The notes: generated by a model from the sequence alone, not told the origin. Shown: positions 12,995-47,228, counted from the first letter of the stretch. The stretch: 64,000 bases of DNA from an uncultured Verrucomicrobiota bacterium (GCA_903826865.1 CAIKGD010000040.1:1-64000); one strand, 5' to 3'. Numbers and translations: made by a program.

Positions 12995-13025
12995 CCTGCG
13001 GGTTTTCCGCAGGTTTGGTTTGTTT
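12995..13025 (+). terminator. Hairpin CCTGCGG-GTTTT-CCGCAGG followed by a T-rich tract, upstream of gspD
   Basis: Perfect 7-bp inverted repeat followed by TTTGGTTTGTTTT; located in the gspD 5' region. Confidence 0.5.
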
Positions 13026-13058
13026 TACGGAAGTCGCTTAAAACAGGTGGGGTGAATT

Positions 13059-15305
13059 ATGCATCGTAGCCGGGTTGTTATTCTGCTGATGAGTCTTTCT
13101 TTCTTCCATTCATTCGCTCAGGAGGAGTCCGGGCGTCCGGCGATGAGTGAAGAGGAGCGTGCGGCGCGGCGGGCACAGTTTATTCAAATGATGCAAAACC
13201 GCGCCGGCAGCGGTAACGGCACCGCCGCGATTGATCAGGCGGTGTCAACTCAGCGTCCGGCGGAGGGCGCTCAGCTGGAAACCACCCGGCCGGCGACCCC
13301 GGCAGGCTCCGAAGTAACGGTGAACTGGGAAAACGTGACCCTGAAGGACTGCATTGAAGTCCTTTGCCGCGACCTCGGAATGGAGTTCGTCATTTCTCCT
13401 TCGGTGAATGTTTCACAGGAAGTCAGTGTGCGGGCCGGTGATGTCACTCGCTGGACGGTACAGGACAAGCAGGAGCTTTTTGACGCGATTCTTGAAACAG
13501 CCGGAGTGCAGCGGGTGCAACGCGGCCGGGTATGGGTCTTTTCACCGTCCGATATCCGTCCGGTGGTTGAGGCGTTTACAGACGGAAAATACGGCGACGG
13601 CAAACCGGTGATCGGCGTAATCAAGCTGAAGAGCATTGATGCATCGCAGGCGGAGCAGTTCCTGAACACGGTCGGCGGCAAGCCGCCGCGTGTTTTTGCG
13701 ATGAAAGGTTCCCGCATGATTCTGGTGCTCGGAACGCAGCAGTTTCTGTCGCAAATGGAAGCGCTGGTTAAACTGATTGATTTTCCGGCGGGCGTTCTGA
13801 AACCCTACACACTCGAAAATGCTTCTTCTGACGATATGGTCAAAGAACTGGCCGCTATTTTTTACGGGCGGAGCGGCGGAGACGGAGAGTCGATCCGTTT
13901 TACTTCAGTGCCCCGCCTGAATGTAATTGTTGCCAATAATGTTCCCGATGGAATGATTGATGAAGTGACGAAATGGGTTCAGATGCTTGACCGGTTTGAC
14001 GATGAGAATGATCGGGCTACCCGTGTTTACCGCCTGCAGGTGATTGAGGCTGACACCATTGCAAAAACGCTCAGTTCTCTGTACTCCACCCTTTACAAGC
14101 AGACGCAGGCTCAGAAGAAACAGTCGACGGCGAGTACGGCGGTTGCGAAAAGGACAGCAGGTTCCGGAGGCGGCAGTGCTGCAAAGCCGGCCGCTGCGGC
14201 CAAGCCAGCCGCTGCGGCCGCTTCGTCGTCAGCGGGCGGAGCTGCGGCTGCACCGGCCAAGGCTTCTGGAACCGGTGGACCGCAATCCTCGCCGGACATG
14301 GAAGAAGAAGCTGTGATTCTCTCCGACAAGGACACCAACACACTGATCATCAATGCGACGCCGGATCAGCACCGGGATATTGAACGAACGATCAAAGAGC
14401 TGGATCGGCCGCGCCGTCAGGTGCTGATCGAAACCGTGCTGGTCGAAGTGACGCTGGATGAAGGCACCGATCTCGGAGTTGAATGGGCGGTTGCCAAGGG
14501 GCTTTCTTCCGCCGGACTTCAATCCGGGCTAAACAACAACTTAGTCGGGTTGCTGAATAATGTGGCTACCAATGCGGTGGACGGATTGTCCTATCTGCTT
14601 AAATCCAGCGACAAGAAATTTGCTTTTATTCAGGCGGCGCAAAACGACAACCGCCTGCAGGTTCTTTCTTCGCCGACCGTACTGACCCGCGACGGAATGG
14701 AAGCAGAAGTCTCCTTTGGGGATGAGGTGCCGATTCAGGAAAAAAGCACGTCTGGGACGACCAGCACCCGGGACAACTATTCGTACAGCTATCACGATGC
14801 GAAAATTACGCTGACGGTTACGCCGGTGATTGACGACAACAAAAAGGTCACGCTGAATCTTGCACAGACCCTGCGGCAGCTGCCCCCGGATTATACGGTA
14901 ACAGTTAATGCCAACGGCGATCTTCCTCCCCCGATTTTCACAACGCGCGAGATTCATTCCAACCTGCAGGTGGAAAACGGGCAGACGCTGGTTCTCGGCG
15001 GTTTGATCCAGCGGAAAGACCAGAAAATAAGAACCGGAATTCCGTTGCTCTGCCGCACTCCGTACATCGGATGGCTTTTCGGCCATACCCAGACCAAAAA
15101 AGTCGGCTCTGAAATTCTGATGATTCTCACACCGTATGTGGTGGATACACGCGATGAAACCGATCTGCTGACTCAGGATTTCCGCTCGAAGATCATCGGG
15201 GCGATGTCAAAGAAAAACATCCGCACCCTCTACAATCTGGAAGAAAAGGGAAAGCCGGCCGAGTCAAAGGTCGATACCATCGTTCCTGAAGCGGAAGGAA
15301 ACTGA
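13059..15305 (+). CDS. gspD: Type II secretion system secretin GspD
   Basis: Signal peptide, N domains, and secretin domain (VPIQEKSTSGTT...LVLGGLIQRKDQKIRTGIPLLCRTPYIGWLFG); Ala/Pro/Lys-rich linker. Confidence 0.95.
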   Translation: MHRSRVVILLMSLSFFHSFAQEESGRPAMSEEERAARRAQFIQMMQNRAGSGNGTAAIDQAVSTQRPAEGAQLETTRPATPAGSEVTVNWENVTLKDCIEVLCRDLGMEFVISPSVNVSQEVSVRAGDVTRWTVQDKQELFDAILETAGVQRVQRGRVWVFSPSDIRPVVEAFTDGKYGDGKPVIGVIKLKSIDASQAEQFLNTVGGKPPRVFAMKGSRMILVLGTQQFLSQMEALVKLIDFPAGVLKPYTLENASSDDMVKELAAIFYGRSGGDGESIRFTSVPRLNVIVANNVPDGMIDEVTKWVQMLDRFDDENDRATRVYRLQVIEADTIAKTLSSLYSTLYKQTQAQKKQSTASTAVAKRTAGSGGGSAAKPAAAAKPAAAAASSSAGGAAAAPAKASGTGGPQSSPDMEEEAVILSDKDTNTLIINATPDQHRDIERTIKELDRPRRQVLIETVLVEVTLDEGTDLGVEWAVAKGLSSAGLQSGLNNNLVGLLNNVATNAVDGLSYLLKSSDKKFAFIQAAQNDNRLQVLSSPTVLTRDGMEAEVSFGDEVPIQEKSTSGTTSTRDNYSYSYHDAKITLTVTPVIDDNKKVTLNLAQTLRQLPPDYTVTVNANGDLPPPIFTTREIHSNLQVENGQTLVLGGLIQRKDQKIRTGIPLLCRTPYIGWLFGHTQTKKVGSEILMILTPYVVDTRDETDLLTQDFRSKIIGAMSKKNIRTLYNLEEKGKPAESKVDTIVPEAEGN

Positions 15306-26420: not shown

Positions 26421-26626
26421 CCGCACCATGCATAAAGGTAACTTCGCCGACAATAATAAAAATTTGTCTAAGTATAACAACCTCATAAAGAACGTCTTTT
26501 GCCTTGATCGCCTACTCTTTTCCCATACAGTTCGACCCGTTGGCGCGTTCTATAAAGACGCATGAACCGAGGTTAAAGTTCGTTCAACAATACTTGTTAG
26601 GCCACACAACCAACATCGGAGATATC

Positions 26627-27586
26627 ATGGCATCCAGCAGCCTACCAGCAACGACTGACGAAGATATACAAGGCAGAACAGGTGTCCACTTAGTTGGACT
26701 TAAGGTGCACCAATATCTGAAGTGGATTTTCCGCGAGAAGCCAACATCTGATATAGGAATTGATGGAGAAATCGAACTTAGATCCCCGTCCGGGGAAAGC
26801 CATGGGCGATTAATCGCCGTTCAGATCAAATGCGGGCCTTCGTACCTTCGTGAGCAAACGTCAAATTCAATTGTTTATCGGGGTGACTACAAGCATCTTC
26901 GTTATTGGTCTAACTACGCCGTACCCGTGATTGTGGTTCTCTGTGATCCTGTTGAAAGCATCTGCTGGTGGCAGGCTGTAGACATGCAAAGGATCCATTT
27001 CCATGAGAAGGGCTGGAGCTTAGAGGTTGAAAAGAAAAATGTGTTGGGTGAATCCGCAACTGAAGCGCTAACTACTGTCGCAGCTCGCTTGCAAAAGAAG
27101 GATATCATCGAGCTTGCACTTAGAGACTGGATCGGATGGCGATTCGAGCATCAGATGCGGCTTGCTTCGCTCTTCGCTAGTCCTCGCGACTATCACTGGT
27201 TTTCTCACTTGGGCGCGATCGGTGATGAGTTCTATATGATCGACTACGTTCTCGCGGATGTACATGGATTCCAACTCGATGCCGTCAAGCAGTTCATGCG
27301 CCACGCCCAAGGCAATCATAGCGAGTACAAGTACGAGCATGTGCTGCTTGCGTTCGTTAGCGAGTCCATTCACCACCTACTTTCAATTCCTGAGCCACCG
27401 ACTCTTGCAGGAATACGCATTGAATACGTTCCGCTGCTATTGCAACTTGATGGTGAGCCGAGACTTCGTGAAATGGGCAAGGATTCGAAGTTGGTGGCCT
27501 TCTATGAGCATGGGGAAACGATAGGAGAGTACGCTGATGATGTAACCCTGATGCGCAAGTCTTCGGACGGCCGCTCATCGGCCTGA
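26627..27586 (+). CDS. DUF4365 domain-containing protein
   Basis: IGIDGEIELRS...GRLIAVQIKCGPSYL...DYKHLRYWSNYAVPVIVVLCDP is a DUF4365-like pattern with a nuclease-like D..E..QIK arrangement; ATG 26627 preferred over 26504. Confidence 0.8.
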   Translation: MASSSLPATTDEDIQGRTGVHLVGLKVHQYLKWIFREKPTSDIGIDGEIELRSPSGESHGRLIAVQIKCGPSYLREQTSNSIVYRGDYKHLRYWSNYAVPVIVVLCDPVESICWWQAVDMQRIHFHEKGWSLEVEKKNVLGESATEALTTVAARLQKKDIIELALRDWIGWRFEHQMRLASLFASPRDYHWFSHLGAIGDEFYMIDYVLADVHGFQLDAVKQFMRHAQGNHSEYKYEHVLLAFVSESIHHLLSIPEPPTLAGIRIEYVPLLLQLDGEPRLREMGKDSKLVAFYEHGETIGEYADDVTLMRKSSDGRSSA

Positions 27587-27875: not shown

Positions 27876-30182
27876 ATGGATCAGGTAACTCACAACAAAA
27901 TTGTTTCTTTTATCTGGGGCATTGCGGACGACGTTTTGCGTGACCTATTTAAGCGCGGCAAATACCCGGATGTAATTCTGCCAATGTGCGTGATCCGCCG
28001 CATGGATGCCGTGCTGGAGCCGACCAAGCAGGCGGTACTCGACACCAAAAAGATGCTGGACTCTGCGCACATCACCGAACAGCGCGCCGCGCTGTGCAGC
28101 GCATCTGGTCAGGCTTTTTACAACACCTCGAAGTTTACCCTGCGCGATTTGAAGTCGCGCGGCAGTCAGCAACAGCTTTTGGCCGACTTCGAGGACTATC
28201 TCAACGGCTTTTCCCAGAACGTTCAAGACATCATCGAAAACTTCAAATTCCGCAACCAGATTCCGACGCTCTCCAAAGCCGATGCGCTGGGCACACTGAT
28301 CAATAAACTTCTCGACCCCGGAATAGACCTTTCTCCGGCGGGCATTGACAACCATTCCATGGGAACGGTGTTTGAGGAGTTGGTTCGCAAGTTCAACGAG
28401 GAAAACAATGAAGAGGCCGGTGAGCACTGGACGCCGCGTGATGCCGTGCGCCTGATGGCGAATCTTGTGTTTCTGCCGATTGAAGATCGTTTGAAATCCG
28501 GTTCTTATCTGCTTTACGACTGTGCTTGCGGCACGGGCGGTATGCTCACCGTGGCGGAAGAAACGCTCACGGGAATCGGGAAAAAGCACGGACTCCAAAT
28601 TCGCAGTCACCTGTATGGGCAGGAAATCAATCCTGAGACCTACGCCATTTGCAAAGCCGACATGCTGTTGAAGGGCGAAGGCGAAAATGCCGATCACATC
28701 GTCGGCGGTGCGGAATGGTCAACACTTTCGCACGATGCTTTCCCGGCGCAGGAATTCGACTTCATGCTCGCCAATCCGCCTTACGGCAAGAGCTGGAAGA
28801 AAGACCTTGAAGCGATGGGCGGCAAGGACGGTATGCGCGACCCGCGCTTTAAAGTGATGCACCAAGGTGAAGAAATGTCACTTGTGACCCGTTCCAGCGA
28901 CGGGCAGATGCTTTTCCTCGCCAACATGGCGGCCAAAATGAACGACAAATCGGCGCTGGGCAGCCGCATTGCCGAGGTTCATAACGGCAGTTCGCTTTTC
29001 ACCGGCGATGCCGGGCAGGGCGAAAGCAACATTCGCCGCTGGCTCATTGAAAACGACTGGCTGGAAGCCATTGTTGCACTGCCACTCAACCTTTTTTACA
29101 ACACCGGCATCGCCACCTACATTTGGGTGCTCTCCAATAAGAAGCCCGCGCACCGCAAAGGCAAGGTGCAACTGATTGACGCGACGCAATGGTTCAAACC
29201 CTTGCGGAAAAACCTCGGCAAAAAGAACTGTGAACTGTCGCCGGAAGACATCGAACGCATCAACCGCGCCTTCCTCGACTTCAAAGAAACACCAGAGTCT
29301 AAGATTTTCCAGAATAAAGCCTTCGGCTATTGGAAAGTCACAGTCGAACGACCGCTTCGCTTGCACAGCCAACTTTCGCTTAAAGCGATTGAAACGCTAC
29401 GCTTCGCCTCCGGCGATGAGGAGATTCGTACCGCACTCTACGAAGAGTTCGGCGATGACCTCTTCTCGAAGTTTTCCAAAATTTCTTCTGCGCTGGAGAA
29501 ACGGCTTGCCGACTGGGGCGGGGATGATGATGAGGCAGAGGATGAAGAAGAAGGCACCGCCAAGAAGGGGTTGCCCGAAAAGAAGAAAAAGAAGCTGCTT
29601 GATGCCAAGACATGGGAACGCGACGGACGCCTCGTTGAAACGGCCACGATGTTGCGTGCGACGCTGGGCGATAAACTTTTTGAAGACCACAACATTTTCC
29701 GTGACCGCGTGGATGCCGAAATCAAAAAGGCTGGGCTGAAATTGCCCGCCGCTGATTTGAAACAGATTCTCAAAGCCGTCAGCTGGCGCGTCGAAACCGC
29801 TCCGCCGGTCATCGCTAAGTTTCATAAACCCGGCAAGGCAAAGGCTGATCCGCTGAATGGTCTGTTCTTAGCGAGCGTGAACGGGAAGCCAGGTATTGTT
29901 GAATACGAAACCGACTCCGACCTGCGCGACACCGAGCAGGTTCCGCTTTTGGAAGAGGGCGGTATCGAAGCTTTCATCCGGCGGGAGGTTCTACCTTACA
30001 CGCCGGACGCATGGATCAAGGAGGGTGCCACCAAAATCGGCTACGAAGTCAGCTTCACCCGCCATTTCTACAAACCCCAGCCGTTGCGCACGCTCGAAGA
30101 AATTGCTGCCGACATTCTGGCGGTTGAGCAGGAGGCGGAAGGATTGCTGGACGGGTTGCTCAAGGGAGGCAAAAAATCATGA
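27876..30182 (+). CDS. hsdM: Type I restriction-modification DNA methyltransferase subunit (HsdM)
   Basis: HsdM N-terminal helical domain; DCACGTGGMLTVAEE (motif I) and LANPPYGKSW (motif IV). Confidence 0.95.
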   Translation: MDQVTHNKIVSFIWGIADDVLRDLFKRGKYPDVILPMCVIRRMDAVLEPTKQAVLDTKKMLDSAHITEQRAALCSASGQAFYNTSKFTLRDLKSRGSQQQLLADFEDYLNGFSQNVQDIIENFKFRNQIPTLSKADALGTLINKLLDPGIDLSPAGIDNHSMGTVFEELVRKFNEENNEEAGEHWTPRDAVRLMANLVFLPIEDRLKSGSYLLYDCACGTGGMLTVAEETLTGIGKKHGLQIRSHLYGQEINPETYAICKADMLLKGEGENADHIVGGAEWSTLSHDAFPAQEFDFMLANPPYGKSWKKDLEAMGGKDGMRDPRFKVMHQGEEMSLVTRSSDGQMLFLANMAAKMNDKSALGSRIAEVHNGSSLFTGDAGQGESNIRRWLIENDWLEAIVALPLNLFYNTGIATYIWVLSNKKPAHRKGKVQLIDATQWFKPLRKNLGKKNCELSPEDIERINRAFLDFKETPESKIFQNKAFGYWKVTVERPLRLHSQLSLKAIETLRFASGDEEIRTALYEEFGDDLFSKFSKISSALEKRLADWGGDDDEAEDEEEGTAKKGLPEKKKKKLLDAKTWERDGRLVETATMLRATLGDKLFEDHNIFRDRVDAEIKKAGLKLPAADLKQILKAVSWRVETAPPVIAKFHKPGKAKADPLNGLFLASVNGKPGIVEYETDSDLRDTEQVPLLEEGGIEAFIRREVLPYTPDAWIKEGATKIGYEVSFTRHFYKPQPLRTLEEIAADILAVEQEAEGLLDGLLKGGKKS

Positions 30183-31204
30183 GCACCCGCGATGATCTGC
30201 TGGCATCCATAGCTAATACAAGCAAAGACTATCAGGTAGGGGTGCGTCCTGCACCAACTCCTGCCCATGTTGATCGGTGGGTAAATCAATTTGATTCCGC
30301 TGTTCAGCTTCCAATCTTGACGGAGCTGGATCACGTATTAAAAAAAACCTACTTCAACCGGGAGTTAGTAGCATGGTTTCTTAAAGGCCTGATTATAAAT
30401 AAAGACCTAGCGGGTAATGATCCATGTAGCTTTTGGCGAGGAATTAATTTTTTAGATATTCAGCAAGGCGGAAATAGCCAGAGGGACATGCTCTCACTTT
30501 TCGATTCCTTTCTTTATGAACACTGCGGCGTTCATGTCGCCGGATGCGGGGGAACTGAGCCCGTATATGTGTACCTTGATGATGTCATTTTTACTGGCGG
30601 GCGGGTTTTGCAGGATATGTCATCATGGATTAAGACATCTGCACCCGCAAAAGCGAAAGTTCACATCATCACCATTGCGTACCATCGAGGCGGGCAGTAT
30701 TACGCGAAAAATAAGATTGCCGAAGTCGCCGATGCGGCCAAAAAAAAGATTGAATTAGTGTGGTGGCGATGCATAGAGATCGAAGACACTAAAGCGCGTA
30801 TAAACACATCAGATGTTTTGCGCCCCACGATGCTTCCACCCGCCGACACATTAGTTGCGGCCTATGCTGCGGGAATGCAGCACAAACCAATTTTTCGCAC
30901 TCCTAGCAGTGTGGGGATGAATGAATTTTTTTCCAGTGAGACTGGGCGTCATGTTCTCGAACAGGAGTTTTTAAAAGCCGGCGTGAGAATTCGGCAAATG
31001 TGCCCTCATTTTATAGCGTATCAGCGACCTCTTGGCACAATGGGATTGGAAACCCTCGGTTTCGGTTCGCTTATTGTTACCTATCGCAACTGTCCGAACA
31101 ATGCGCCCTTGGCGCTTTGGGCGGGTGACCCTTGGTACCCCTTGTTTGAGCGAACAACCAACAGTGCTACGGCCATAAAGCGTCTTTTTGGGGGAACATC
31201 TTGA
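30179..31204 (+). CDS. Phosphoribosyltransferase-like (PRTase-CE-like) protein
   Basis: PRPP-loop-like VYVYLDDVIFTGGRVLQDM (hhhhDDhhxTGxxh); ATGA overlap with hsdM. Confidence 0.75.
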   Translation: MSTRDDLLASIANTSKDYQVGVRPAPTPAHVDRWVNQFDSAVQLPILTELDHVLKKTYFNRELVAWFLKGLIINKDLAGNDPCSFWRGINFLDIQQGGNSQRDMLSLFDSFLYEHCGVHVAGCGGTEPVYVYLDDVIFTGGRVLQDMSSWIKTSAPAKAKVHIITIAYHRGGQYYAKNKIAEVADAAKKKIELVWWRCIEIEDTKARINTSDVLRPTMLPPADTLVAAYAAGMQHKPIFRTPSSVGMNEFFSSETGRHVLEQEFLKAGVRIRQMCPHFIAYQRPLGTMGLETLGFGSLIVTYRNCPNNAPLALWAGDPWYPLFERTTNSATAIKRLFGGTS

Positions 31205-33303
31205 TGAGTTCCGATCAGTTACGCACTTATTTGCGGACAGAATGTGCTGTTTTCCGCAAGACGGCTGAGGCGTTTGGCGGGCTTTCCAACATGGCCCCGG
31301 GATTTCCTGTCCGGGTCAATGGGGAGCGTATCCTCACCGTTGAGGCGCTTTATCAGGCTTGTCGTTTTCCTCACCGGCCGGAAGTCCAGCGGCTGATTCT
31401 TGAGCAGTCCAGCCCGATGACGGCCAAGATGGTAAGCAAACCTTATCGCAATGATTCACGCGCGGATTGGAAGAAAGTCCGTGTTAGCGTGATGCGATGG
31501 TGCTTGCGCCTTAAACTTGCTCAGCACGGGGCGAAATTCAGTCAGCTTCTGCTATCAACAGGTGACTTTCCGATTGTTGAAGACTCGCGCAAAGACGACT
31601 TCTGGGGGGCGATTCCCAGCGATAGCAAAACCCTTGTTGGCATGAATGTGCTTGGTCGCTTGCTGATGGAGCTTCGCGAGAGCATCAAAAACGGCGATGA
31701 ATTGCGGTGCGTTGTTCCACCTGAGATTCCGAATTTTCTACTTTTCGGCGAACCGCTCCAGATTGTTGATTTCCGCGCAGACAAAAGCGCTCCCCCGCCT
31801 GCGCCAGCCATTTCACAGCAACTGCCTCTTTTTGATGATGCCTTTAAGTCTGTACCAAAAGTCCGTAAACCTGAAGTCCGTTCGATCCCAGCTTCTAAAA
31901 AAGAAGCCGCTGTTATCGCCGACTTAAACCCCTATCCCGAATACAAAGACTCCGGTCTGCCGTGGCTCGGTAAGGTGCCGCAACATTGGGAAGCACGGCC
32001 CGCATTTGGTGCCTTTGAGCCCAACCGCGAGCGTAATTTTGGCATGAAAGAGAAGACTGTGCTGTCCCTCAGTTATGGGCGAATCATTATCAAGCCGGCA
32101 GAAAAACTGCATGGTCTTGTCCCCGAGTCTTTCGAAACCTATCAGATCGTGAATCCTGGCGACATTGTGATCCGTACGACCGATCTGCAAAACGACCACA
32201 CAAGCCTGCGAGTCGGAATGGTGCGGAACCGTGGAATCATTACTTCCGCTTATTTGGCGCTGAAGTTAAAGGCGGGCGTCATTCCGGAGTTTGGCTTCCA
32301 ATTCCTGAATGTTTGGGATACGAGTAAGGCGATCTACGAGTACGGCTCTGGCCTTCGCCAAAATCTCGACTTCTCACATTTTAAGCGAATGCCCGTTGCG
32401 CTTCCCCCACCGGAAGAGCAGGCGGCGATTGTGCGGTTTCTGGACTGGGCGAACGGGCTGTTGGAGCGGACGATCCGCGCCAAACGCAAAATCATCACAC
32501 TGCTCAACGAACAGAAACAGGCCATCATCCACCGCGCCGTCACGCGCGGCCTCAATCCCAATGTCCCGCTCAAAGACTCCGGCATCCCTTGGCTCGGAAA
32601 AATTCCGGAACATTGGGAAATGCCACTTAACCAGCGTATTTTTAAAGAGAAAATTCGATCACATGGTGATTTGCCGGAAACTCAACTCTCACTATCACAG
32701 CGAGCCGGGCTGATTGCATCAAAGGACATGCAGGAACGATCTTTACAAACTTCTTCTTATAACAACTGGAAGGTGACCGTTCCCGGCGACTTAGTCCTGA
32801 ATCGTTTTAAAGCGCATTTAGGTGTGTTTTTTGCATCCACACTTCGCGGGATTGTTTCTTTTCATTACGGCGTGTTTGCTCCACAGCGTGTTTTACATGC
32901 GAAATACTTTGAGTTGTTGTTCCACACCTACCCTTATAGAGCTATCTATGCCGGTTGCTCAAATGGCATGACCGTTGGCCTTCAAAACCTCTCCAATCAG
33001 AATTTCTATAATGTTCGATGTGTAGTTCCGCCGGTTGTTGAACAAATTGCAATTGTTGCTTATGCAGAACGCGAGACGCGGATGTTGAACACCGCCATTA
33101 ACCGGCTCGAACGGGAGATTGAACTTTTGCGCGAATACCGGACGCGGCTGGTTGCCGATGTGGTGACGGGCAAGCTGGATGTGCGCGAAGCCGCCGCCAA
33201 GCTCCCGGCCCCGCCCGCCGATGCCTTCGCCGAATCTGCCCCCGACGATCCGCTGGAAGAAATCGACGACGAACTGGAGGAAACGAACAATGCCAACAAC
33301 TGA
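31204..33303 (+). CDS. hsdS: NADAR (YbiA-like) domain fused to type I restriction specificity subunit (HsdS)
   Basis: N-terminal GGLSNMAPGFPVRVNGERILTVEALYQACRF...LLLSTGDFPIVEDSRKDDFWG (NADAR pattern); C-terminal HsdS with two TRDs, each starting at a YKDSGLPWLGKVPQHWE / LKDSGIPWLGKIPEHWE motif. TGATG junction with the PRTase gene. Confidence 0.88.
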   Translation: MSSDQLRTYLRTECAVFRKTAEAFGGLSNMAPGFPVRVNGERILTVEALYQACRFPHRPEVQRLILEQSSPMTAKMVSKPYRNDSRADWKKVRVSVMRWCLRLKLAQHGAKFSQLLLSTGDFPIVEDSRKDDFWGAIPSDSKTLVGMNVLGRLLMELRESIKNGDELRCVVPPEIPNFLLFGEPLQIVDFRADKSAPPPAPAISQQLPLFDDAFKSVPKVRKPEVRSIPASKKEAAVIADLNPYPEYKDSGLPWLGKVPQHWEARPAFGAFEPNRERNFGMKEKTVLSLSYGRIIIKPAEKLHGLVPESFETYQIVNPGDIVIRTTDLQNDHTSLRVGMVRNRGIITSAYLALKLKAGVIPEFGFQFLNVWDTSKAIYEYGSGLRQNLDFSHFKRMPVALPPPEEQAAIVRFLDWANGLLERTIRAKRKIITLLNEQKQAIIHRAVTRGLNPNVPLKDSGIPWLGKIPEHWEMPLNQRIFKEKIRSHGDLPETQLSLSQRAGLIASKDMQERSLQTSSYNNWKVTVPGDLVLNRFKAHLGVFFASTLRGIVSFHYGVFAPQRVLHAKYFELLFHTYPYRAIYAGCSNGMTVGLQNLSNQNFYNVRCVVPPVVEQIAIVAYAERETRMLNTAINRLEREIELLREYRTRLVADVVTGKLDVREAAAKLPAPPADAFAESAPDDPLEEIDDELEETNNANN

Positions 33304-35632
33304 CTCCCTATTAGATCCACGCGTCCAGCAGTCCCTGCGTTCTTCCCATGAATCGCTCATGAAACGTGGCGAGCTGATGACGAAAGAACGTCTGTCCGAA
33401 TGTTACGCCCTGTTTCGTGAACGATTCGGCCCGGAGCGCCTCAAGAGTCTGGACGGCGAGGTTTTGTTAAATACGATACACGCCCACGGAAATCAGGACA
33501 GCTTGGTGTATTGGCTGGAATTTAAGAGCGACGCCGAGTTTCCAACCCGCCAGTTCGGCAGCATTGCAGGCGGCAGTGCGCTAAAGTTCGGGCTCTACAA
33601 AAGCAAGGATTCTGGCGAATGGATGGCCGGCCATCCCACCAACCAAGTCACTTTGCCGTTAGCCGAGGCCATCGCTATTGCGCGAAAGCACCGTGACCAG
33701 TTGATCGCCGCCGTGGCCGTAATTCAGGATTTGCCCAGCGGGGCGGACGATCAGGAATATCTCGCTTTGCAGAACAAATTGGATGAAATCGCGCCGGATG
33801 TTTGCCGCCTTGCTTGGGGGCACAAATATGTGAGCCTACTTTTTCCGGACAAGCTGGACGATTTTCACGCTGAATATTTCCAGCGGCACAATCTCATCAA
33901 ACTGCTACAACTGCCGCCCTCGCAGCCCGGCCTGTATGTTTCGGCGGGCCGGTTTGTCAGCTTCGCAAATCAAATGGGCTGGCCCATGAATCACCTCACC
34001 GCTGTGCTCAATGCGCGGAACGGCACGCCCACAAAATACTGGCGCATCGGCACCAGGCTGGGCGAAGGGGGCGATGCTCAAGATGTATGGCCAGCCATGG
34101 AAGCCGGTGGCTATGCGGCCGTTGGCTGGCCGGAACTGGGAGATTTATCCAACGCACTCGCGGGTGATAACGTGAAAGAATCTCTCGTGGAAATGCTGGC
34201 CAAAGCGTACCCAAGCTATTTGGCAAATGTTGCTTCGCGCAAAGCCGGTGAGATTCGGAACTTTGCCAAAGACATGGCTGAAAATGATGTGGTGCTTGCC
34301 GCGGACGGCGAGTGGATTCTTGGCGTCGGGTTAGTCAAAGGCCCATACCGATATGAGCCGACACCGCCGGAAGATGCGCCGCACCGTCGTCAGGTCGAGT
34401 GGCATGTGACCCCGAAATGGAAATTGCCCGTCACGGAAGGATTGAGAACCACTGTCTGGAGATTGAAAAAGGATAGCCGGAACTTTGTAGCCGTGGAGCG
34501 CCAGTTGTTGGAGCCGTCGTTGCCGGTGTCACCCGCGCCCATTGTCCCAACGCCGCAGCAACCGAAACCCGTTCGCAAAACCCTGCGCTTGGAAAGCGTC
34601 ATTCCGGGTAAGTTGCAGGCGATCTTGGAACGTAAAGGACAGGCTATTCTCTACGGTCCGCCGGGCACCGGAAAAACCTATTGGGGCAAGCAGACGGCAC
34701 TCGACTTGTCAGCCATCGGGGCATTCGGGTCTCTGTATGCGGATCTTACTGCCGAGCAGAAAGTCGCCGTCAACGGGGCCGGCTCAAACTCGGGCCTGCT
34801 GCGCTGCTGCACGTTCCATCCGGCATTCGGTTACGAAGATTTCATTGAGGGCTTCCGTCCTCAGAAAAGCACAGGCGGGCAGTTGATCTTTGAAAAGCGT
34901 GATGGCATTTTCAAAACACTTTGCCGCGATGCCGCCGCTTCCGATCAGAAGTTTGTTCTGCTCATTGACGAAATAAATCGCGGGGACATCCCGCGCATCT
35001 TTGGTGAGTTACTTACGCTGCTTGAAAAGAATAAACGCGGGCAGGAAGTGATTTTGCCTTTGTCTGGCGATAAGTTCTCCGTGCCAGCCAACGTCCTGGT
35101 CATCGGCACCATGAATACGGCGGACCGTTCCATCGCCTTGCTCGATACCGCCTTGCGGCGGCGGTTCGGGTTTGTGGAGTTGATGCCGGATTCGTCCACG
35201 TTGTCAGGTGCGATTGCAGGCGAGGCAATTCCTTTGGGCCAGTGGCTCGATGCAATAAATTCCCGCATCCGTGAACACATCGGCAAAGACGCCCGCAATT
35301 TGCAAATCGGCCATGCCTACCTGATGGATGATAATGGAAAGCCGGTCACGGATTTTTCAAAATTTTCCCGCATCATCGCCGAGGACATCATTCCGCTACT
35401 GGAGGAATATTGTTACGAAGACTACGGCGCACTCACGGAGATTTTGGGAGGGGCTATGGTGGATGGTGAACGGCAGCGTGTGCGAGAGGAATTGTTTTTG
35501 CCCGCGCGACGGCAGGATTTGATTCAGGCGTTGCTGGCACCGACTCCAGAATTGTCCACGACAATTGAATCGGTCGCTCAACTAGTACCAATTCCCGAAC
35601 CGGAGGACGAAGCCGAAGAACCTGCCAAATGA
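33290..35632 (+). CDS. mcrB: McrB-like AAA+ GTPase/ATPase with N-terminal EVE/PUA-like region
   Basis: GPPGTGKTYWGKQ, LLIDEINRGDIPRIFGELLTLLE, GTMNTADRSIALLDTALRRRFGF; N-terminal KYWRIGTRLGEGG...GYAAVGWPELGDLSN. ATG 33290 overlaps hsdS by 14 nt. Confidence 0.9.
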   Translation: MPTTDSLLDPRVQQSLRSSHESLMKRGELMTKERLSECYALFRERFGPERLKSLDGEVLLNTIHAHGNQDSLVYWLEFKSDAEFPTRQFGSIAGGSALKFGLYKSKDSGEWMAGHPTNQVTLPLAEAIAIARKHRDQLIAAVAVIQDLPSGADDQEYLALQNKLDEIAPDVCRLAWGHKYVSLLFPDKLDDFHAEYFQRHNLIKLLQLPPSQPGLYVSAGRFVSFANQMGWPMNHLTAVLNARNGTPTKYWRIGTRLGEGGDAQDVWPAMEAGGYAAVGWPELGDLSNALAGDNVKESLVEMLAKAYPSYLANVASRKAGEIRNFAKDMAENDVVLAADGEWILGVGLVKGPYRYEPTPPEDAPHRRQVEWHVTPKWKLPVTEGLRTTVWRLKKDSRNFVAVERQLLEPSLPVSPAPIVPTPQQPKPVRKTLRLESVIPGKLQAILERKGQAILYGPPGTGKTYWGKQTALDLSAIGAFGSLYADLTAEQKVAVNGAGSNSGLLRCCTFHPAFGYEDFIEGFRPQKSTGGQLIFEKRDGIFKTLCRDAAASDQKFVLLIDEINRGDIPRIFGELLTLLEKNKRGQEVILPLSGDKFSVPANVLVIGTMNTADRSIALLDTALRRRFGFVELMPDSSTLSGAIAGEAIPLGQWLDAINSRIREHIGKDARNLQIGHAYLMDDNGKPVTDFSKFSRIIAEDIIPLLEEYCYEDYGALTEILGGAMVDGERQRVREELFLPARRQDLIQALLAPTPELSTTIESVAQLVPIPEPEDEAEEPAK

Positions 35633-36957
35633 CAACGCAGAACGTTAATTTGACCGAGTGGGAGACGCGGGAGCCGTCCAAAGGCAGCCCCTTGGAGGGG
35701 CCGGTATTGGCCGGCCATCCAGCGGCCCGGCATTTGGCCGAAACGCTCACCCGCCGCGGACGGATTGAAATCCTTGAGCTGGCGCGGGGCTTGGAGTTGC
35801 GGGCATCATCGTATGTCGGGCGTTTCGCTTTGGGTGAATTACTCGTCACTATTAAGCCCAAGATTTCCGGCGTGCCGTTAATGAATCTGCTTCGCTATGC
35901 CTACCGGCTCCGTCATTTGGATTTGTTCGACGAGGTTGGCTATGCAACCTCACAGGCCAGCTTCGAGGATTTATTGATTCATCAGTTGGCCGCCGAATCG
36001 TCCGAATTGCTTTCCCGTGGTCTCCACCGTGATTATTTGCGTACTAACTCCATGCTGGCCAGCCCGCGAGGGCGGATTGATTTCGGCGGTTACATGCAAG
36101 TCGCCGCTAATGCTGGGGTAGCTTTGCCCTGTGTCCATTATCCCCGCAGCGAGGATAACTGTTTAAATCAGGTATTGCATGGTGGACTGGAATTAGCTGC
36201 CCGGATGACGTTGGATCGTGAATTAAGTGGTCGCGTCCGGCGTTTGGCAAAAAGTTTTACCGGAAGGATCACACCAAAGAATTTGGACGCTACTGGCTTT
36301 GCCGGGGCATGGCATTCACTCGACCGACGCACCAGTGCCTACCGACCTGCGCTTACCTTGATTCAGATGCTTCTGAATACTCAGGGTGCGTCCTTGACGG
36401 ACACCAAATCACCCATGCCCGCTGCTGGCTTTCTGTTCGACATGAATCGCTTTTTTCAGACGCTCCTTTCCCGCTTTCTTGGCGAGAACCTCATTGATTA
36501 CGAGGTTCAGGATGAACGAGTGTTGCGCGGAGTGTTCAGTTACGACCCGGCCAACAATCCTCGTAATCATCGCTCGCCATCGCTTCGTCCTGATTTTCTC
36601 GTGCTACGTAATCACAAGATTGAAGCCGTTCTGGATGCCAAGTATCGTGATCTGTGGGAAAGAAATCTGCCGCGTGAAATGTTATATCAGCTTGCCCTCT
36701 ATGCCTTGGGGCAGGAGAGCGGTAATCGCCGCGCAACAATTATTTACCCCACCTTGGAAGATGCCGCTCGTCAACAGATTGTTTTCGTTAAGGATCCGCT
36801 AAGCGGTACCTTGAAAGCAGAGATAATTCTGCGACCGGTTCACCTGCTCAAACTCGACCTGCTTTTGCGCGACAAAGGTGTTCATGCCCAGCGTAACCGA
36901 ATCGAGTTTGCCAAGCAGCTAGCTTTCGGAGAGTCATCTGATATTTCAACCAACTAA
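35629..36957 (+). CDS. mcrC: McrC-like 5-methylcytosine restriction system subunit
   Basis: YVGRFALGELLVTIKPKISGVPLMNLLRYAYRL and nuclease region LRPDFLVLRNHKIEAVLDAKYRDL; ATGA overlap with mcrB. Confidence 0.92.
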   Translation: MTTQNVNLTEWETREPSKGSPLEGPVLAGHPAARHLAETLTRRGRIEILELARGLELRASSYVGRFALGELLVTIKPKISGVPLMNLLRYAYRLRHLDLFDEVGYATSQASFEDLLIHQLAAESSELLSRGLHRDYLRTNSMLASPRGRIDFGGYMQVAANAGVALPCVHYPRSEDNCLNQVLHGGLELAARMTLDRELSGRVRRLAKSFTGRITPKNLDATGFAGAWHSLDRRTSAYRPALTLIQMLLNTQGASLTDTKSPMPAAGFLFDMNRFFQTLLSRFLGENLIDYEVQDERVLRGVFSYDPANNPRNHRSPSLRPDFLVLRNHKIEAVLDAKYRDLWERNLPREMLYQLALYALGQESGNRRATIIYPTLEDAARQQIVFVKDPLSGTLKAEIILRPVHLLKLDLLLRDKGVHAQRNRIEFAKQLAFGESSDISTN

Positions 36958-36969: not shown

Positions 36970-39900
36970 ATGAGCACAACCGACATCACCGAAAAAGGCC
37001 TCGAAACCCTCATCATGCGCCATCTGACCGGCGGGAACGGGTTTGATGTTCCGGCGGGACGTGTGGACGAGACTCCCGAAAACATCGCCGCGCAAAAAGC
37101 AGGCGGTGCCGGGTATTTTGCAGGTAGCCCGAAGGACTACGACCGCGCCTATGCACTGGATACAGCCCAGCTTTTCGCCTTCCTGTTCGCCACGCAGCCG
37201 GAGGCAGTTAAAAAATTACAGCTTGCGGGTCAGGACAACATCAACCGCCGCCAGTTCCTCGCCCGTATTTCGTCGGAGGTCGGTAAGCGCGGCGTGATCG
37301 ATGTTTTACGCAAGGGCATTGATCACCATCCGGCAGGCCACTTTGACTTTTTCTACGGGACGCCATCGGAAGGCAACACCAAAGCCGCCGCGCTCAACGC
37401 TAAAAACCGTTTTTCGATCACACGTCAGCTCGCCTACAGCAATGATGAGACGCGCCGAGCCCTCGACCTCGGCCTTTTCATTAACGGCCTGCCCGTCGCC
37501 ACCTTCGAACTGAAAAACAGCCTCACCAAGCAGACGGTGGAAGATGCCGTCGAGCAGTACCGCCGTGACCGCGATCCGCGCGAACTGCTCTTCGGGTTCG
37601 GTCGGTGTGTGGTGCATTTTGCAGTGGACGACAGCGAGGTGCGTATGTGTACCGAGTTGAAAGGTAAAGCCTCGTGGTTCCTGCCGTTCAACAAGGGCTG
37701 CAACGACGGTGCGGGCAATCCGCCGAACCCGAACGGGCTTAAAACCGACTACCTCTGGAAAGAGGTTCTCACTCCGGCAGGGCTGACCAACATTCTTGAA
37801 AACTACACCCAGATCGTTGAAGAAAAGAATTCCAAGACCGGCAAGAAAAAGTACAAACAGGTGTTTCCACGCTACCACCAGCTCGGCGTGGTTCGTCAGG
37901 CGCTGGCTGATGTGCGGGTCAATGGCTCCGGCAAGCGTTACTTGATTCAGCATTCGGCGGGCAGCGGCAAGTCGAACTCCATAGCATGGCTGGCACACCA
38001 GCTGATCGGGCTCAAACGAAGCGGCAAAGAAATCTTCGATTCCGTTATTGTGGTCACGGATCGGCGTTTGCTTGACGACCAGATTCAAAAGACCATTAAG
38101 CAGTTCATGCAGGTGGGCTCGACAGTGGGCCATGCCGAAAACTCCGGCGACCTGCGTACGTTCATCGAAGAAGGCAAAAAGATCATCATCTCTACCGTGC
38201 AGAAGTTCCCTTTCATTCTCGATGAAATCTCCACCGAAAGTGGCAGGGCGTTCGCGATTATCATCGACGAAGCGCACTCCAGTCAGGGCGGCAAGACATC
38301 GGCGGCGATGAGCAAAGCGCTAGGCGATGAGTCGGAGGATGCCGATCCGGAAGACGCTATCAATACCGCCCTTGAACAGCGCATGGCGGCGCGCAAGATG
38401 CTCACCAACGCCAGCTACTTTGCTTTCACCGCTACGCCGAAGAGCAAGACGTTGGAACTGTTCGGCGAGCCGTTACCGCCGGATGCCGAGGGCAAAGTTA
38501 AACACAAGCCGTTCCATAGCTATACGATGAAACAGGCTGTGGAAGAGCGTTTCATTCTGGATGTGCTCAAGTGCTACACGCCGGTCGAGAGTTACTACAA
38601 ACTGGTGAAAAAGACGGAGGACGATCCGGAGTTCGATACCAAGAAGGCGCAGAAGAAACTGCGCAAGTATGTCGAAAGCCATGACCACGCGATTCAGCTC
38701 AAGGCGGAAATCATGGTGGATCACTTCCACGAGCAGGTGCTGGCTGCCGGTAAGATCGGCGGACAGGCGCGGGCGATGGTGGTGTGCAATGGCATCGAGC
38801 GGGCCATCCAGTATTTCCACGCTTTCAAAACCTATCTGGCAGAGCGCAAGAGCCCGTATCAGGCCATCGTCGCTTTCTCAGGCGAACCCGACTATTGCGG
38901 GGTCAAGGTCAGCGAATCATCGCTTAATGGGTTTCCCGGCAGTGGCATCGCGGAAAAATTTCAGAACGATCCGTACCGTTTCCTGATCTGTGCAGATAAA
39001 TTCCAAACCGGCTATGATGAACCGCTGTTGCACACGATGTATGTGGATAAGCCACTTTCAGGTATCAAAGCGGTGCAGACGCTTTCCCGGCTCAACCGCG
39101 CCCATCCGCAGAAGCACGATTGCTTCGTTCTCGATTTCCAAAATAATGCGGAGACGATCACCTTTGCTTTTCAGGATTACTATCGCACCACGCTGCTCGC
39201 CGAGGAAACCGATCCCAATAAGCTCCATGATTTGAAAGGTGCTCTCGATAATGCGCAGGTCTATTCACCGGAGCAGGTGCAGAAGATCGTGGAGCTGTTT
39301 CTCAGCGGCGCCGACCGTGATCAACTCGACCCGATTTTGGATACTTGTGTGGCGGTTTATAAAGAGCGGCTCGATGAAGACGGACAGGTAGAATTTAAAG
39401 GGAAAGCCAAGATATTCTGCCGCACCTATGATTTTCTCGCTTCAATCATGCCCTATACGAATCGCGACTGGGAAAAGCTCTCCATTTTTCTAAATCTGCT
39501 GACGCCCAAATTGCCCGCGCCGAAAGAAGAGGATCTTTCCAAAGGCATTCTTGAGGCCATTGACATGGACAGCTATCGCGTCGAGAAGAAGGCCGTAATG
39601 AAAATCGCGCTGGCGGATGAAGATGCACAAATCGAACCCATTCCGACGGATGCCGGTCGGCGGAAGTCCGAGCCCGAGCTCGACCGGCTCAGCAATATTC
39701 TCAAAACCTTCAACGAACATTTCGGAACGCTGTTCACCGATGCCGACCGCGTTGCGAAGCGCATCCGCGATGACATCGCCCCGCAGGTTGCCGCCGACGT
39801 GACGTACCAGAACGCCAAAGAAAATACACCGCACACGGCGCGTATGGCCCACGATCAGGCTCTTAGCAAAGTCATGCAACTCCTGCTCAAAGAAGACACT

Positions 39901-39990
39901 CAGGTATATAAACAGTTTGTCGAAAACGAATCGTTCCGCCGTTTTGTCAGCGACATGGTCTACGAACTGACTACCGGTGCGGCGGCATAA
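36970..39990 (+). CDS. hsdR: Type I restriction endonuclease subunit R (HsdR)
   Basis: Nuclease motif LPVATFELKNSLTKQT; SF2 helicase motifs (QHSAGSGKSNSIAWLA, IIDEAHSSQGG, FTATPK). Confidence 0.95.
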   Translation: MSTTDITEKGLETLIMRHLTGGNGFDVPAGRVDETPENIAAQKAGGAGYFAGSPKDYDRAYALDTAQLFAFLFATQPEAVKKLQLAGQDNINRRQFLARISSEVGKRGVIDVLRKGIDHHPAGHFDFFYGTPSEGNTKAAALNAKNRFSITRQLAYSNDETRRALDLGLFINGLPVATFELKNSLTKQTVEDAVEQYRRDRDPRELLFGFGRCVVHFAVDDSEVRMCTELKGKASWFLPFNKGCNDGAGNPPNPNGLKTDYLWKEVLTPAGLTNILENYTQIVEEKNSKTGKKKYKQVFPRYHQLGVVRQALADVRVNGSGKRYLIQHSAGSGKSNSIAWLAHQLIGLKRSGKEIFDSVIVVTDRRLLDDQIQKTIKQFMQVGSTVGHAENSGDLRTFIEEGKKIIISTVQKFPFILDEISTESGRAFAIIIDEAHSSQGGKTSAAMSKALGDESEDADPEDAINTALEQRMAARKMLTNASYFAFTATPKSKTLELFGEPLPPDAEGKVKHKPFHSYTMKQAVEERFILDVLKCYTPVESYYKLVKKTEDDPEFDTKKAQKKLRKYVESHDHAIQLKAEIMVDHFHEQVLAAGKIGGQARAMVVCNGIERAIQYFHAFKTYLAERKSPYQAIVAFSGEPDYCGVKVSESSLNGFPGSGIAEKFQNDPYRFLICADKFQTGYDEPLLHTMYVDKPLSGIKAVQTLSRLNRAHPQKHDCFVLDFQNNAETITFAFQDYYRTTLLAEETDPNKLHDLKGALDNAQVYSPEQVQKIVELFLSGADRDQLDPILDTCVAVYKERLDEDGQVEFKGKAKIFCRTYDFLASIMPYTNRDWEKLSIFLNLLTPKLPAPKEEDLSKGILEAIDMDSYRVEKKAVMKIALADEDAQIEPIPTDAGRRKSEPELDRLSNILKTFNEHFGTLFTDADRVAKRIRDDIAPQVAADVTYQNAKENTPHTARMAHDQALSKVMQLLLKEDTQVYKQFVENESFRRFVSDMVYELTTGAAA

Positions 39991-40019: not shown

Positions 40020-41165
40020 ATGAATAAAAAATTCCACAAGGAAGTATTCGACCAGCCGACTCAGTTGAAACTCGATATTTTCCGAAAATATATCCGGGAA
40101 TGGCTGCCGGTTTTCCTGTCGAAAAAATACGCGAACGGTTCCGCCGTGTTTAAGCAGATCAATCTGTACGATTACTTCGCCGGCCCAGGAACCGACGCAA
40201 AAGGCACCTTCGGATCGCCTTTGATTATTCAGGAAGAGGTTAAGGCATTCTGTGCCGCAAAGAGTGCTCTTAAGGCGGATGTGCCGGTCAAAATGTTATT
40301 TAACGACATCGAAGAAGAATTTATTGAAGAACTGAAACAGAATGTTGCGAGCCATCGCTGCCAGAAAAACTGCTGTTCATTTGAGTTCAGTGCAAAACCG
40401 TTTCAAGAACTGCTTTCTGACCATTTGCCGGAGATGCGGCAGAAAGGTCATGCCAACCTCATCCTTCTTGATCAGTTTGGTGTCAAGGAAGTCAGCCCGG
40501 AGATCATTCGCAGTCTGTTGGATTGCGGTACGACGGACATCATGTTTTTCATATCTTCTTCGTACATCAATCGGTTTGTCGCTACGGTGGAGTTCCAAAA
40601 CCGATTTTCAATCGATCCGGCGCAGCTCAAAGATATCGAGTACAATGCGATCCATCGGTTCATTTGCGAATATTTTCGCAGCAGTCTGGGCGGAACCGAT
40701 GCGCTGGTTGCCCCGTTTTCAATAAAAAAGGGGCGCAACATCTACGGAGTGATTTTTGCCAGCAGGGATATGCTTGGCATGGAGAAATTTTTGAAGGTGT
40801 GCTGGACTCTGGATGCCATCGCAGGGTCGGCCAACTACAACATAGATAATGAAATATGCTACAAGGGGGATTCCCTTTTTGCCGAGTTTAATAAACCGAC
40901 CCGAGTATCGGTTTTTGAGCAGGACATTCTGAATTTTATTCAGACCGCCCGCCCGGACAACACTGCACTTTATCGCTTCTGCCTTGGAAATGGATTCCAT
41001 TCCTCAAAGGCAAATGACATTCTTGGGGAGTTACAGGATAAGGGACGCATCGAAGTCAGAGACGCCGGTTCTGGCGGACTTGCTCGGAAGAAGAGTTTTT
41101 ATCTAAAGGAACCCCAAAGACTGGTGGTTTACGAGGCAAAGCAATGGCAGCAGGATCTTCTATAG
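40020..41165 (+). CDS. tcmP: Three-Cys-motif partner protein TcmP
   Basis: [24 protein letters not shown]...[21 protein letters not shown] pattern; adjacent three-Cys protein. Confidence 0.85.
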
Positions 41166-41860
41166 AGTGGACAGAGTCCACTTGGAATCCGGTGACGGGA
41201 TGCACGAAAATCAGTGCAGGCTGCAAGCACTGCTATGCTGAACGCATGGCAAAGCGTCTTCACGCAATGGGTCAGCCGAATTATCGCAATGGGTTTAAAG
41301 TGACGTGTCATCCGGATGTTCTTGGAATGCCGTTGCGGTGGAAAAAGTCCCAGATGATTTTTGTGAACTCCATGAGCGACCTGTTCCATAACGATGTCCC
41401 GGCGGAGTTCGTTGACGAAATTTTCTTCACCATGAATGCGGCTCGCCTGCATACGTTCCAGATTTTGACCAAGCGGGCCGGGCGTATGGCGCAGTTGGCC
41501 AGCCGCTTTAACTGGACTTCCAATATCTGGATGGGTGTGACGGTGGAAAATGCCGATCACGTTGACCGGATTGATCTTCTGCGCGAAGTCCCCGCCGCAG
41601 TCCGGTTCCTGTCACTGGAACCTTTGCTCGGGCCTCTGCCGAATCTTAACCTCAAAAAAATCGATTGGGTGATTGTCGGCGGCGAATCCGGTCCCGGTGC
41701 ACGCCCGATGGAAAAGGCTTGGGTTACAGACCTTCGCGACCAATGCCTTAAAGCGAATGTGCCGTTTTTTTTCAAGCAATGGGGCGGGGTTCAGAAAAAG
41801 AAGCACGGACGCCTGCTCGGAAAACGCACATGGGATCAAATGCCTGCGGCGACTACATAG
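41144..41860 (+). CDS. Phage Gp37/Gp68 family (DUF5131-like) three-Cys protein
   Basis: [52 protein letters not shown]; 22-nt overlap with tcmP. Confidence 0.92.
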
Positions 41861-45586: not shown

Positions 45587-46993
45587 CTATGCCGCCAGCG
45601 ATGCTTTCTGCCGGTCCTGATCCTGTCGAAGCTGGGTGGCTATTTCCTGCTCAATCTCGGCCAACCGTCTGAGGATTGCGGCCTTTTCCATATCCTTGCC
45701 GTACTCGAGAAGCCCTTGTATCTTTTGGAGCATTTCCTGAGTGTTCTCGTTCGGCTTCTGAGCTCCGTCCTCTGTCTTCTGATCTCTGTCCTCCGGCATC
45801 TCTCCCGCCGTCAGCATCTTCGGCATCGCCGTTTCCAGAGCCATTTTAAATGCCTCTCTTCCGGGCCGGAAATAGTGCTTCAATACGACATCCACCGTCG
45901 AGTGGCCGGTGACGCGGCGAACCAGTTCCATCGGTACACCCGCTGTCAGCGCCATCGTAATCCATGTTGTCCGCAGCGAGTGGAAATCCTTCACGCTGGC
46001 CTTTTGCATGGCATCATCCCGCTCAATCACGGCACCTTCGATCTTGGCGTCATTGATCGCCTTTTTGAAACGCCACGTCAGACCCATCAAGTTGGCCTTG
46101 TACATTTTCGCCACATCGGGAAAGACATAGATGCTTTTGCGCGGTAGTTTTTCCAGTTCGGCCCGCAACAGCGGGAAGAGCGGAATTTCCGCCAGCTCTC
46201 CGGTCTTGGAGGTCTTCACCGAAATAAACCCGTTTTCCAGATCGACCGATTCCCATTTCAGCATGGCGCAGTCACCGCGCCGCATCGCCGTGCACATGGC
46301 CGTCAAAACAACAGGCCGGATCAGATCATCGCAATGAGCCAGAATAGCGTTGAGCTCTTTCTGTGTGAACGGCTGACGGTGCATAGTATTGGTTTCATGG
46401 AAGGGAATGCCGTTGAAGGGGTTTGTCAGCACGCCCGCTTCCGTCCCGAGCTTTTCGAAAATGCCTTTCAGCAGCGAAAGCTTCGTGTTGTAGGTGGCGC
46501 CAGCCATTCCCATATCATCCAGACTCTTCATCCATGCCAGCGCCATCTTGCGGGTAATCTGCGACATCGTCGGGGCTTGGGGAAACGTTGCTTCCATGAA
46601 CTTCCGGAACTGCCGGATGGTTGTCAGCTGATTTTCTGTCCGGAGCGGACAGCGTTTCTTTTTAGTCGGCAGCAAATTCCACCGCTCAGCCATTTCGGCC
46701 AGTGGGATTTGTGTCAGTTCTTCACCGGCTTTGATCTCATAGAGTTCCTGCAGATGATGCGCAGCGGTTTTCCGACTGCGTGCGTGCGCGATCAGTTCTT
46801 TGATTTTTGCGTCGGCCAGTGTGCGCGAGCATTCAAACGCCGTGTCTCCTGTTTTGCGCAGGGTCGCCGGAACTCGGCCTTTAACTTCAATGCCGAGGTT
46901 CACGCAGTGGTTTTTCCCATCGACTTCGAACCGTCCGTACCACCAGTTTGACTTCAGCGAACCATCTTTATTTTTTTGGATTTCCAGTCCCAT
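45587..46993 (-). CDS. Tyrosine recombinase/integrase
   Basis: Catalytic motifs: Arg in TAMCTAMRRGDCAML, HSLRTTW, GHSTVDVVLKHYFRP. Confidence 0.95.
   Translation of the reverse strand: MGLEIQKNKDGSLKSNWWYGRFEVDGKNHCVNLGIEVKGRVPATLRKTGDTAFECSRTLADAKIKELIAHARSRKTAAHHLQELYEIKAGEELTQIPLAEMAERWNLLPTKKKRCPLRTENQLTTIRQFRKFMEATFPQAPTMSQITRKMALAWMKSLDDMGMAGATYNTKLSLLKGIFEKLGTEAGVLTNPFNGIPFHETNTMHRQPFTQKELNAILAHCDDLIRPVVLTAMCTAMRRGDCAMLKWESVDLENGFISVKTSKTGELAEIPLFPLLRAELEKLPRKSIYVFPDVAKMYKANLMGLTWRFKKAINDAKIEGAVIERDDAMQKASVKDFHSLRTTWITMALTAGVPMELVRRVTGHSTVDVVLKHYFRPGREAFKMALETAMPKMLTAGEMPEDRDQKTEDGAQKPNENTQEMLQKIQGLLEYGKDMEKAAILRRLAEIEQEIATQLRQDQDRQKASLAA
45756..45797. repeat. Heptanucleotide array (site E): TTCTGAG CTCCGTC CTCTGTC TTCTGAT CTCTGTC CTCCGGC
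   Basis: Six units in 7-nt phase inside the 3' part of the integrase gene (encodes PEDRDQKTEDGAQK on minus strand). Confidence 0.8.
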
Positions 46994-47105
46994 CTTTTCT
47001 GCCTCCCGTTGATTTTGCGTTCATTTGCAACGCCCCCATACAAAGAGGGCGAATCAACCGGCCAAACCCGTAGTTTCCCCCGTAGTCGGGCCGGGCAAGG
47101 CAGAA

Positions 47106-47133
47106 ATAAAAAAAGCACCTTCTGCAAGGTGCT
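47106..47133 (-). terminator. Rho-independent terminator downstream of tRNA-Val
   Basis: AGCACCTT-GCAG-AAGGTGCT followed by TTTTTTT on the minus strand. Confidence 0.8.
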
Positions 47134-47151
47134 GAATATCAATGATTTAAA

Positions 47152-47228
47152 TGGTGGGCGTTACAAGATTCGAACTTGTGACTTCTACCGTGTGAAGGTA
47201 GCGCTCTAACCAACTGAGCTAAACGCCC
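47152..47228 (-). tRNA. tRNA-Val (anticodon CAC)
   Basis: GGGCGTTTAGCTCAGTTGGTTAGAGCGCTACCTTCACACGGTAGAAGTCACAAGTTCGAATCTTGTAACGCCCACCA: complete cloverleaf with encoded CCA. Confidence 0.97.

Follow-up and report, generated by a model that had tools for sequence, protein, structure and literature searches.

A type I restriction-modification operon from an uncultured Verrucomicrobiota bacterium carries the DS-32 two-gene anti-phage system inserted between hsdM and hsdS, and the NADAR half of that system is fused to the HsdS specificity subunit. On sequence grounds this identification is secure. The families of both halves are already known, as is DS-32 as a named anti-phage system; what appears to be new is the repeated fusion of NADAR to HsdS or to a DUF1156 methylase. 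No paper pairing NADAR with HsdS, describing the DUF1156-methylase fusion or using the term PRTase-CE was found in the searchable open-access literature. The stretch of DNA analysed, hereafter the window, is 64,000 nucleotides long.

The fusion protein (699 aa) is encoded at 31204..33303 on the + strand by a frame without an internal stop. A NADAR domain, residues 1-191 (31204..31776, +), is followed by a disordered linker, residues 193-234 (31780..31905, +; AlphaFold pLDDT <50), and by a complete HsdS with two TRDs and two helical conserved regions (31924..33303, +). In the profile search that an earlier note on this DNA had suggested, Pfam NADAR matched residues 17-161 (E 2.5e-25, 90 bits, cut-off 35.1), and Methylase_S was above its Pfam cut-off in the same protein. 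PADLOC type I specificity subunits match from residue 241 over nearly the full model length (best E 1.4e-88; Specificity_I 296 bits), and alignment and Foldseek likewise identify this part as HsdS. With 35 aligned fusions as input, AlphaFold predicted NADAR to be ordered, the two-TRD HsdS to be largely so and the linker between them to be disordered, with a mean pLDDT of 80. Foldseek matched the HsdS part of this model to 1yf2 and 2y7c and the NADAR part to 2b3w and 8bau. The NADAR of the fusion is the only one in the source genome, which is 98% complete. A frameshift, chimera or assembly error is ruled out by the open frame and because the same architecture is found in 39 other genomes, many of them from cultured isolates. 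The NADAR-HsdS fusion in one frame that the earlier note had read from this DNA is thus confirmed as real.

The gene directly upstream (30179..31204, +), which was absent from the earlier note, encodes a PRTase-CE protein of 341 aa and is the constant partner of NADAR. It is DS-32 component 1, scoring 188 bits against Pfam PRTase-CE (cut-off 27) and 398.3 bits against NCBIfam DS32_1_antiphage (NF053875, model positions 1-322), which passes the equivalog cut-off of 250 bits. The NADAR domain is DS-32 component 2, scoring 274.9 bits against DS32_2_antiphage (NF053876, positions 1-180 of 181), where the equivalog cut-off is 240 bits. The PRTase and NADAR genes adjoin in that order, as DS-32 requires. 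The earlier note was right about the fusion and its completeness, and right to connect it with anti-phage defence. An ordinary YbiA identity is rejected, as the domain scores 71.3 against TIGR02464, under the cut-off of 73.7, while passing that of DS-32.

Typical DS-32 proteins are free-standing, as in an E. coli pair (L122:4941-6574) that passes both DS-32 cut-offs, whereas in the window NADAR is joined to HsdS inside an hsd operon with McrBC. Because its NADAR is not free-standing, the pair in the window is filed as a DS-32 variant rather than as a standard member. The E. coli pair is located in the early region of a lambdoid prophage, and its NADAR part was found in 62/5426 E. coli genomes by a distant DNA search. 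The DS-n names come from DefensePredictor (PMC13092281); NADAR and PRTase domains are named among the validated systems in its main text and legends. The string "DS-32" does not occur in that main text or those legends, so the link between DS-32 and DefensePredictor rests on the NCBI model names. No published mechanism, toxicity or antidote effect of DS-32 was found in the open-access literature.

The operon runs in the order hsdM, PRTase-CE, NADAR-HsdS, mcrB-like, mcrC, hsdR, and all junctions are tight. The hsdM gene (27876..30182, +) encodes a type I N6-adenine methyltransferase subunit of 768 aa with an NPPY motif (Pfam N6_Mtase 4e-52, HsdM_N 2e-22; PADLOC MTase_I 860 bits, full length). 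Its stop is overlapped by the start of PRTase-CE, and the PRTase-CE stop shares one base, at 31204, with the start of the fusion. Behind the fusion lie a McrB-like AAA+ gene, a restriction accessory (33290..35632, +; Pfam AAA_5 4e-12; NCBIfam McrB 132 bits, below the cut-off of 637), and mcrC (35629..36957, +; Pfam McrBC 9e-31), followed by hsdR (36970..39990, +). The type I restriction subunit encoded by hsdR (1006 aa) matches Pfam HSDR_N, SWI2_SNF2 and T1R_D3-like domains and scores 201 bits against TIGR00348 (cut-off 284.55). The type I set is complete, with N6-methylase motifs in HsdM, two TRDs in HsdS, and nuclease and helicase domains in HsdR. Compared with a standard type I system, the window adds PRTase-CE and NADAR between hsdM and hsdS, and McrBC between hsdS and hsdR. 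A type I system on an Enterobacter plasmid has an HsdM 58.5% identical to that of the window, with hsdS and hsdR directly behind it and neither PRTase nor NADAR; its NADAR-free HsdS aligns end to end with the HsdS part of the fusion at 31%. The PRTase/NADAR module therefore sits precisely at the junction of hsdM with hsdS, and hsdS is intact.

Several other genes surround the operon. A DUF4365 gene lies just upstream of hsdM (26504-27586), and hsdR is directly followed by paired TcmP and DUF5131 genes, a candidate defence in PADLOC (PDC-M30/M41; 40020-41860). A tyrosine integrase gene adjoins a tRNA-Val gene at 45587-47228, both on the - strand, suggesting that the defence cluster is part of an integrated island. 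No att repeats marking the island boundary were found in 15000-46000.

NADAR residues were mapped via E. coli YbiA and the published mutagenesis (PMC11543638). The YbiA-type active site of the window comprises E47, R54, W89, E126 and W134, and the catalytic Glu, Trp and Gly positions that the earlier note had singled out are all present (E47, E126, W134, G135). E47, W89, E126 and W134 align with YbiA E48, W89, E125 and W133, and correspond to E43, W89, E125 and W133 of the P. nicotianae NADAR. E47, E126 and W134 are invariant in 86/86 DS-32-type NADARs, all 40 HsdS fusions among them, and W89 is present in 85/86. R54, also found in 86/86, replaces the phosphate-coordinating Lys (K50 in the P. 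nicotianae NADAR), a residue that is largely conserved among NADARs and not strictly defining. The equivalent change in the E. coli C7 NADAR, K95R, kept hydrolysis in vitro and lost DarT1 rescue (PMC11543638). Together with K75 and W99, R54 forms the signature of DS-32 NADARs.

The PRTase-CE protein contains a PRPP-site-like motif, YLDDVIFTG, whose D134, D135 and G140 are present in 84/84 sequences. In the AlphaFold model (pLDDT 94) a strand at 129-137 is followed by a helix at 141-153, giving the strand-loop-helix that holds the motif. From the motif and the predicted fold alone we infer catalysis by PRTase-CE. Uracil and orotate PRTases dominate the top matches in structure comparison; the matches are weak (best E 0.018) and the likeness of the model to these enzymes is suggestive only. 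A sequence search of the PDB with PRTase-CE gave no meaningful match.

The fusion recurs widely. A PRTase alignment scan of ~85,000 species genomes confirmed 165 relatives, and the best 80 were kept. In 80/80 of these loci a NADAR gene follows PRTase, immediately so in 79; in L075 an extra PRTase lies between, the tandem PRTase-CE genes preceding a NADAR-DUF4365 fusion (9968-13733). Among the best 80 of 165, NADAR is fused to HsdS in 39, stands alone in 31, is joined to a DUF1156 methylase in 4 and to DUF4365 in 1, and is truncated or carries other tails in the remaining loci. The best 80 are the loci closest to the window, and thus 39/80 is not an unbiased frequency. Within this set the HsdS fusions span Pseudomonadota, Acidobacteriota, Thermodesulfobacteriota, Planctomycetota and Chloroflexota. 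With at least 39 other genomes carrying the same fusion, a one-off curiosity is rejected. In the phylum of the window, a DS-32-type NADAR over the cut-off is found in 3/388 genomes (the window's included), and it is paired with PRTase in 3/3.

That phylum holds a further NADAR-DUF1156 methylase fusion, besides the four already counted, in a DUF1156/DUF499/SNF2 anti-phage-like operon (L012:4229-16501). As in the window, PRTase-CE is followed there by a NADAR fused to a DNA-modifying component, but the fusion partner is the DUF1156 methylase instead of HsdS. The two genes lie between an SNF2/DrmD-like helicase and a DUF499 ATPase. The same type of arrangement occurs in L034, L046, L060, L079 and probably L090.

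HsdS-fused NADARs do not form one clade on the NADAR tree, where a single origin of the HsdS fusion is rejected (AU p 0.0007). On the PRTase tree, supported branches force at least 5 changes of the HsdS label, which is incompatible with a single origin; such change counts cover gains and losses together. Judged from these trees, the association of NADAR with HsdS has been formed anew or lost on several occasions. There is no support for separate HsdM families as hosts, since all HsdMs form one family at 45% identity except one truncated fragment. The recurrence of the fusion points to a physical coupling of the two defences.

PRTases form N-glycosidic bonds to ribose-5-phosphate. NADARs cleave N-glycosidic bonds to ribose in ADP-ribosyl-guanine (PMC11543638), and YbiA acts on riboflavin intermediates, as cited in the same paper. 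Because these chemistries are complementary, an effector with its antidote would be the simplest reading of the pair, parallel to DarT1-NADAR and YarT-YbiA. NADARs have been shown experimentally to be antitoxins of DarT1 (PMC11543638) and YarT (PMC11125620), and for PRTases a role as suicide effector has been put forward, both in retrons and in a DprA-PRTase system (PMC9122126). PrrC, which is embedded in a type I operon, fires upon inhibition of the restriction enzyme (PMC12707154). We tentatively prefer a model, one that falls somewhat short of an even chance, in which PRTase is the effector, NADAR is the antidote, and the tether to HsdS ties release of the effector to the state of the restriction complex. 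With PRPP as substrate, or by the reverse reaction on a nucleotide, PRTase would make or break an N-glycosidic bond to ribose-5-phosphate, and its target would be a base or nucleotide needed for growth. NADAR, as a ribosyl N-glycosidase, would reverse the PRTase product, and its attachment to HsdS would make it part of the assembled restriction complex. A phage that inactivated or occupied the complex, by means of an Ocr-type DNA mimic for instance, would block or misplace the antidote, and arrest of the cell by PRTase would follow. The pair would then form a guard layer, second behind restriction and functionally similar to PrrC (EcoprrI).

In favour of the model are the invariance in all fusions of E47, R54, E126 and W134 of NADAR and of D134, D135 and G140 of PRTase, the recurrence of the HsdS fusion in four phyla besides Pseudomonadota, and the joining of the same NADAR to a second DNA-methylation system (DUF1156). 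Against the model, DefensePredictor DS-5 is described in PMC13092281 as needing both genes for defence and as likely not a toxin-antitoxin pair; by that precedent NADAR may be a co-effector. The Arg at position 54, given the loss of DarT1 rescue by K95R, and the weak structural matches of PRTase also weigh against it.

The likeness to PrrC/EcoprrI is that an hsd operon contains the gene of an anti-phage effector, and that this effector is proposed to respond to the state of the restriction enzyme (PMC12707154, PMC2610378). PrrC is a tRNA anticodon nuclease without a fused antidote, unlike the window, and no match to the PrrC-type family was found among the genes of the window operon; the relation is one of analogy, not membership. 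With DarT1-NADAR and YarT-YbiA the window shares a NADAR paired with a transferase gene whose product it is proposed to undo (PMC11543638, PMC11125620). Their partner is an ADP-ribosyltransferase, whereas that of the window is PRTase-CE, and the window NADAR differs from theirs in having the YbiA-type Glu together with Arg for the phosphate-binding Lys.

It is conceivable, if rather unlikely, that the restriction enzyme guards itself by means of a new toxin chemistry. PRTase would add or remove ribose-5-phosphate on a nucleic acid or nucleotide, the HsdS-borne NADAR would erase the change only with an intact complex, and an arrangement of this kind would have arisen a separate time on the DUF1156 system. 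If so, one polypeptide would combine sequence-specific self-recognition with an antidote enzyme. The repeated fusion to HsdS or a DNA methylase shows which cellular machine DS-32 is wired to, and makes the question of what the PRTase-NADAR pair senses and does directly testable. If the guard model holds, it would represent a second, unrelated route to PrrC-type punishment of phages that disable restriction, and would supply one reason for stand-alone NADARs in phages.

DS-32 could instead be an effector arm of the restriction enzyme, a possibility we regard as doubtful. HsdS would recognise unmodified phage DNA, and NADAR with PRTase would provide a site-triggered second output beside HsdR cleavage. 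Fusion to the recognition subunit, and elsewhere to a DNA methylase, fits recruitment by DNA recognition, and the DS-32 genes overlap the rest of the operon. However, DS-32 also occurs, and carries its anti-phage name, where there is no DNA-recognition partner, and no fusion was found that involves PRTase itself, which is the more probable effector.

In the model drawn from the earlier note, the HsdS-borne NADAR would remove or read (ADP-)ribosyl marks on DNA at HsdS sites, guarding the host or attacking modified phage DNA. NADARs do hydrolyse ADP-ribosyl-guanine in DNA (PMC11543638), the NADAR active site is intact, and a variant in which PRTase writes a phosphoribosyl DNA mark that NADAR erases is chemically coherent. 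However, a DarT partner is rejected, as no DarT match was found in the whole source genome; the partner of NADAR is PRTase, not an ADP-ribosyltransferase; and free-standing DS-32 NADARs (31 of the best 80 of 165 loci) have no DNA targeting. NADAR chemistry on DNA at HsdS sites thus gained no support, and the idea is possible at low probability rather than best supported. Rather than having been devised for the use of HsdS, NADAR is component 2 of a two-gene system that already has a name as anti-phage.

We consider it similarly improbable that the fusion has no mechanistic role, in which case the two defence modules would share an operon so as to be co-regulated and transferred together, and gene overlap would have produced the fusion as a by-product. 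Unrelated defence genes do occur in the same operons, namely McrBC in the window and GmrSD, DarT with a macrodomain, YhcG and Schlafen-AlbA in relatives, and the linker is disordered. Yet NADAR is fused to three unrelated partner types, the HsdS fusion is found in 39 diverged genomes and was gained or lost more than once, and no other identified accessory gene of these operons was seen fused to HsdS. An incidentally fused housekeeping YbiA that clears riboflavin intermediates would agree with the YbiA-type Glu (E126) and a TIGR02464 score near 70, but is very improbable given that this score is under its cut-off while that of DS-32 is exceeded, that PRTase-CE always adjoins, and that the domain has its own signature (R54, K75, W99).

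Viral contigs show the same pairing, with NADAR adjoining PRTase in 32/32 PRTase loci found. PRTase without NADAR was never observed in the best 80 of 165 genome loci or the 32 viral loci. Eight viral contigs (L138, L139, L140, L141, L162, L163, L164, L165; 50-485 kb), among which there are near-duplicates, carry a DS-32-like NADAR with no PRTase within 6 kb on either side; a ninth (L134) is truncated by its contig end. No PRTase-CE was found in phage GenBank records. A PRTase always accompanied by NADAR, with NADAR sometimes alone, is the pattern expected if PRTase is harmful alone and NADAR alone can help a phage. The orphan NADARs of the large contigs are candidate counter-defence antidotes. 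Orphan phage NADARs may be unrelated in role, which we count against the guard model. Their branches are long, and it is uncertain whether they belong inside DS-32. In those tested, the catalytic Glu and Trp residues are retained, and R54 is missing from a single one.

Other defence genes accompany the fusion in related operons. In an Acidobacteria MAG holding the closest NADAR relative of the window, DarT and macrodomain (DarG-like) genes lie between NADAR-HsdS and hsdR (L035:13223-14936). This type I operon holds two transferase-antidote pairs, and such operons therefore do collect pairs of this kind. A GmrSD_N (DUF262) gene lies between hsdM and PRTase in one subgroup of NADAR-HsdS operons (L027:8163-9956 and about 15 relatives). 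In other NADAR-HsdS operons, YhcG, Schlafen-AlbA or HTH-M78 genes are found between hsdS and hsdR.
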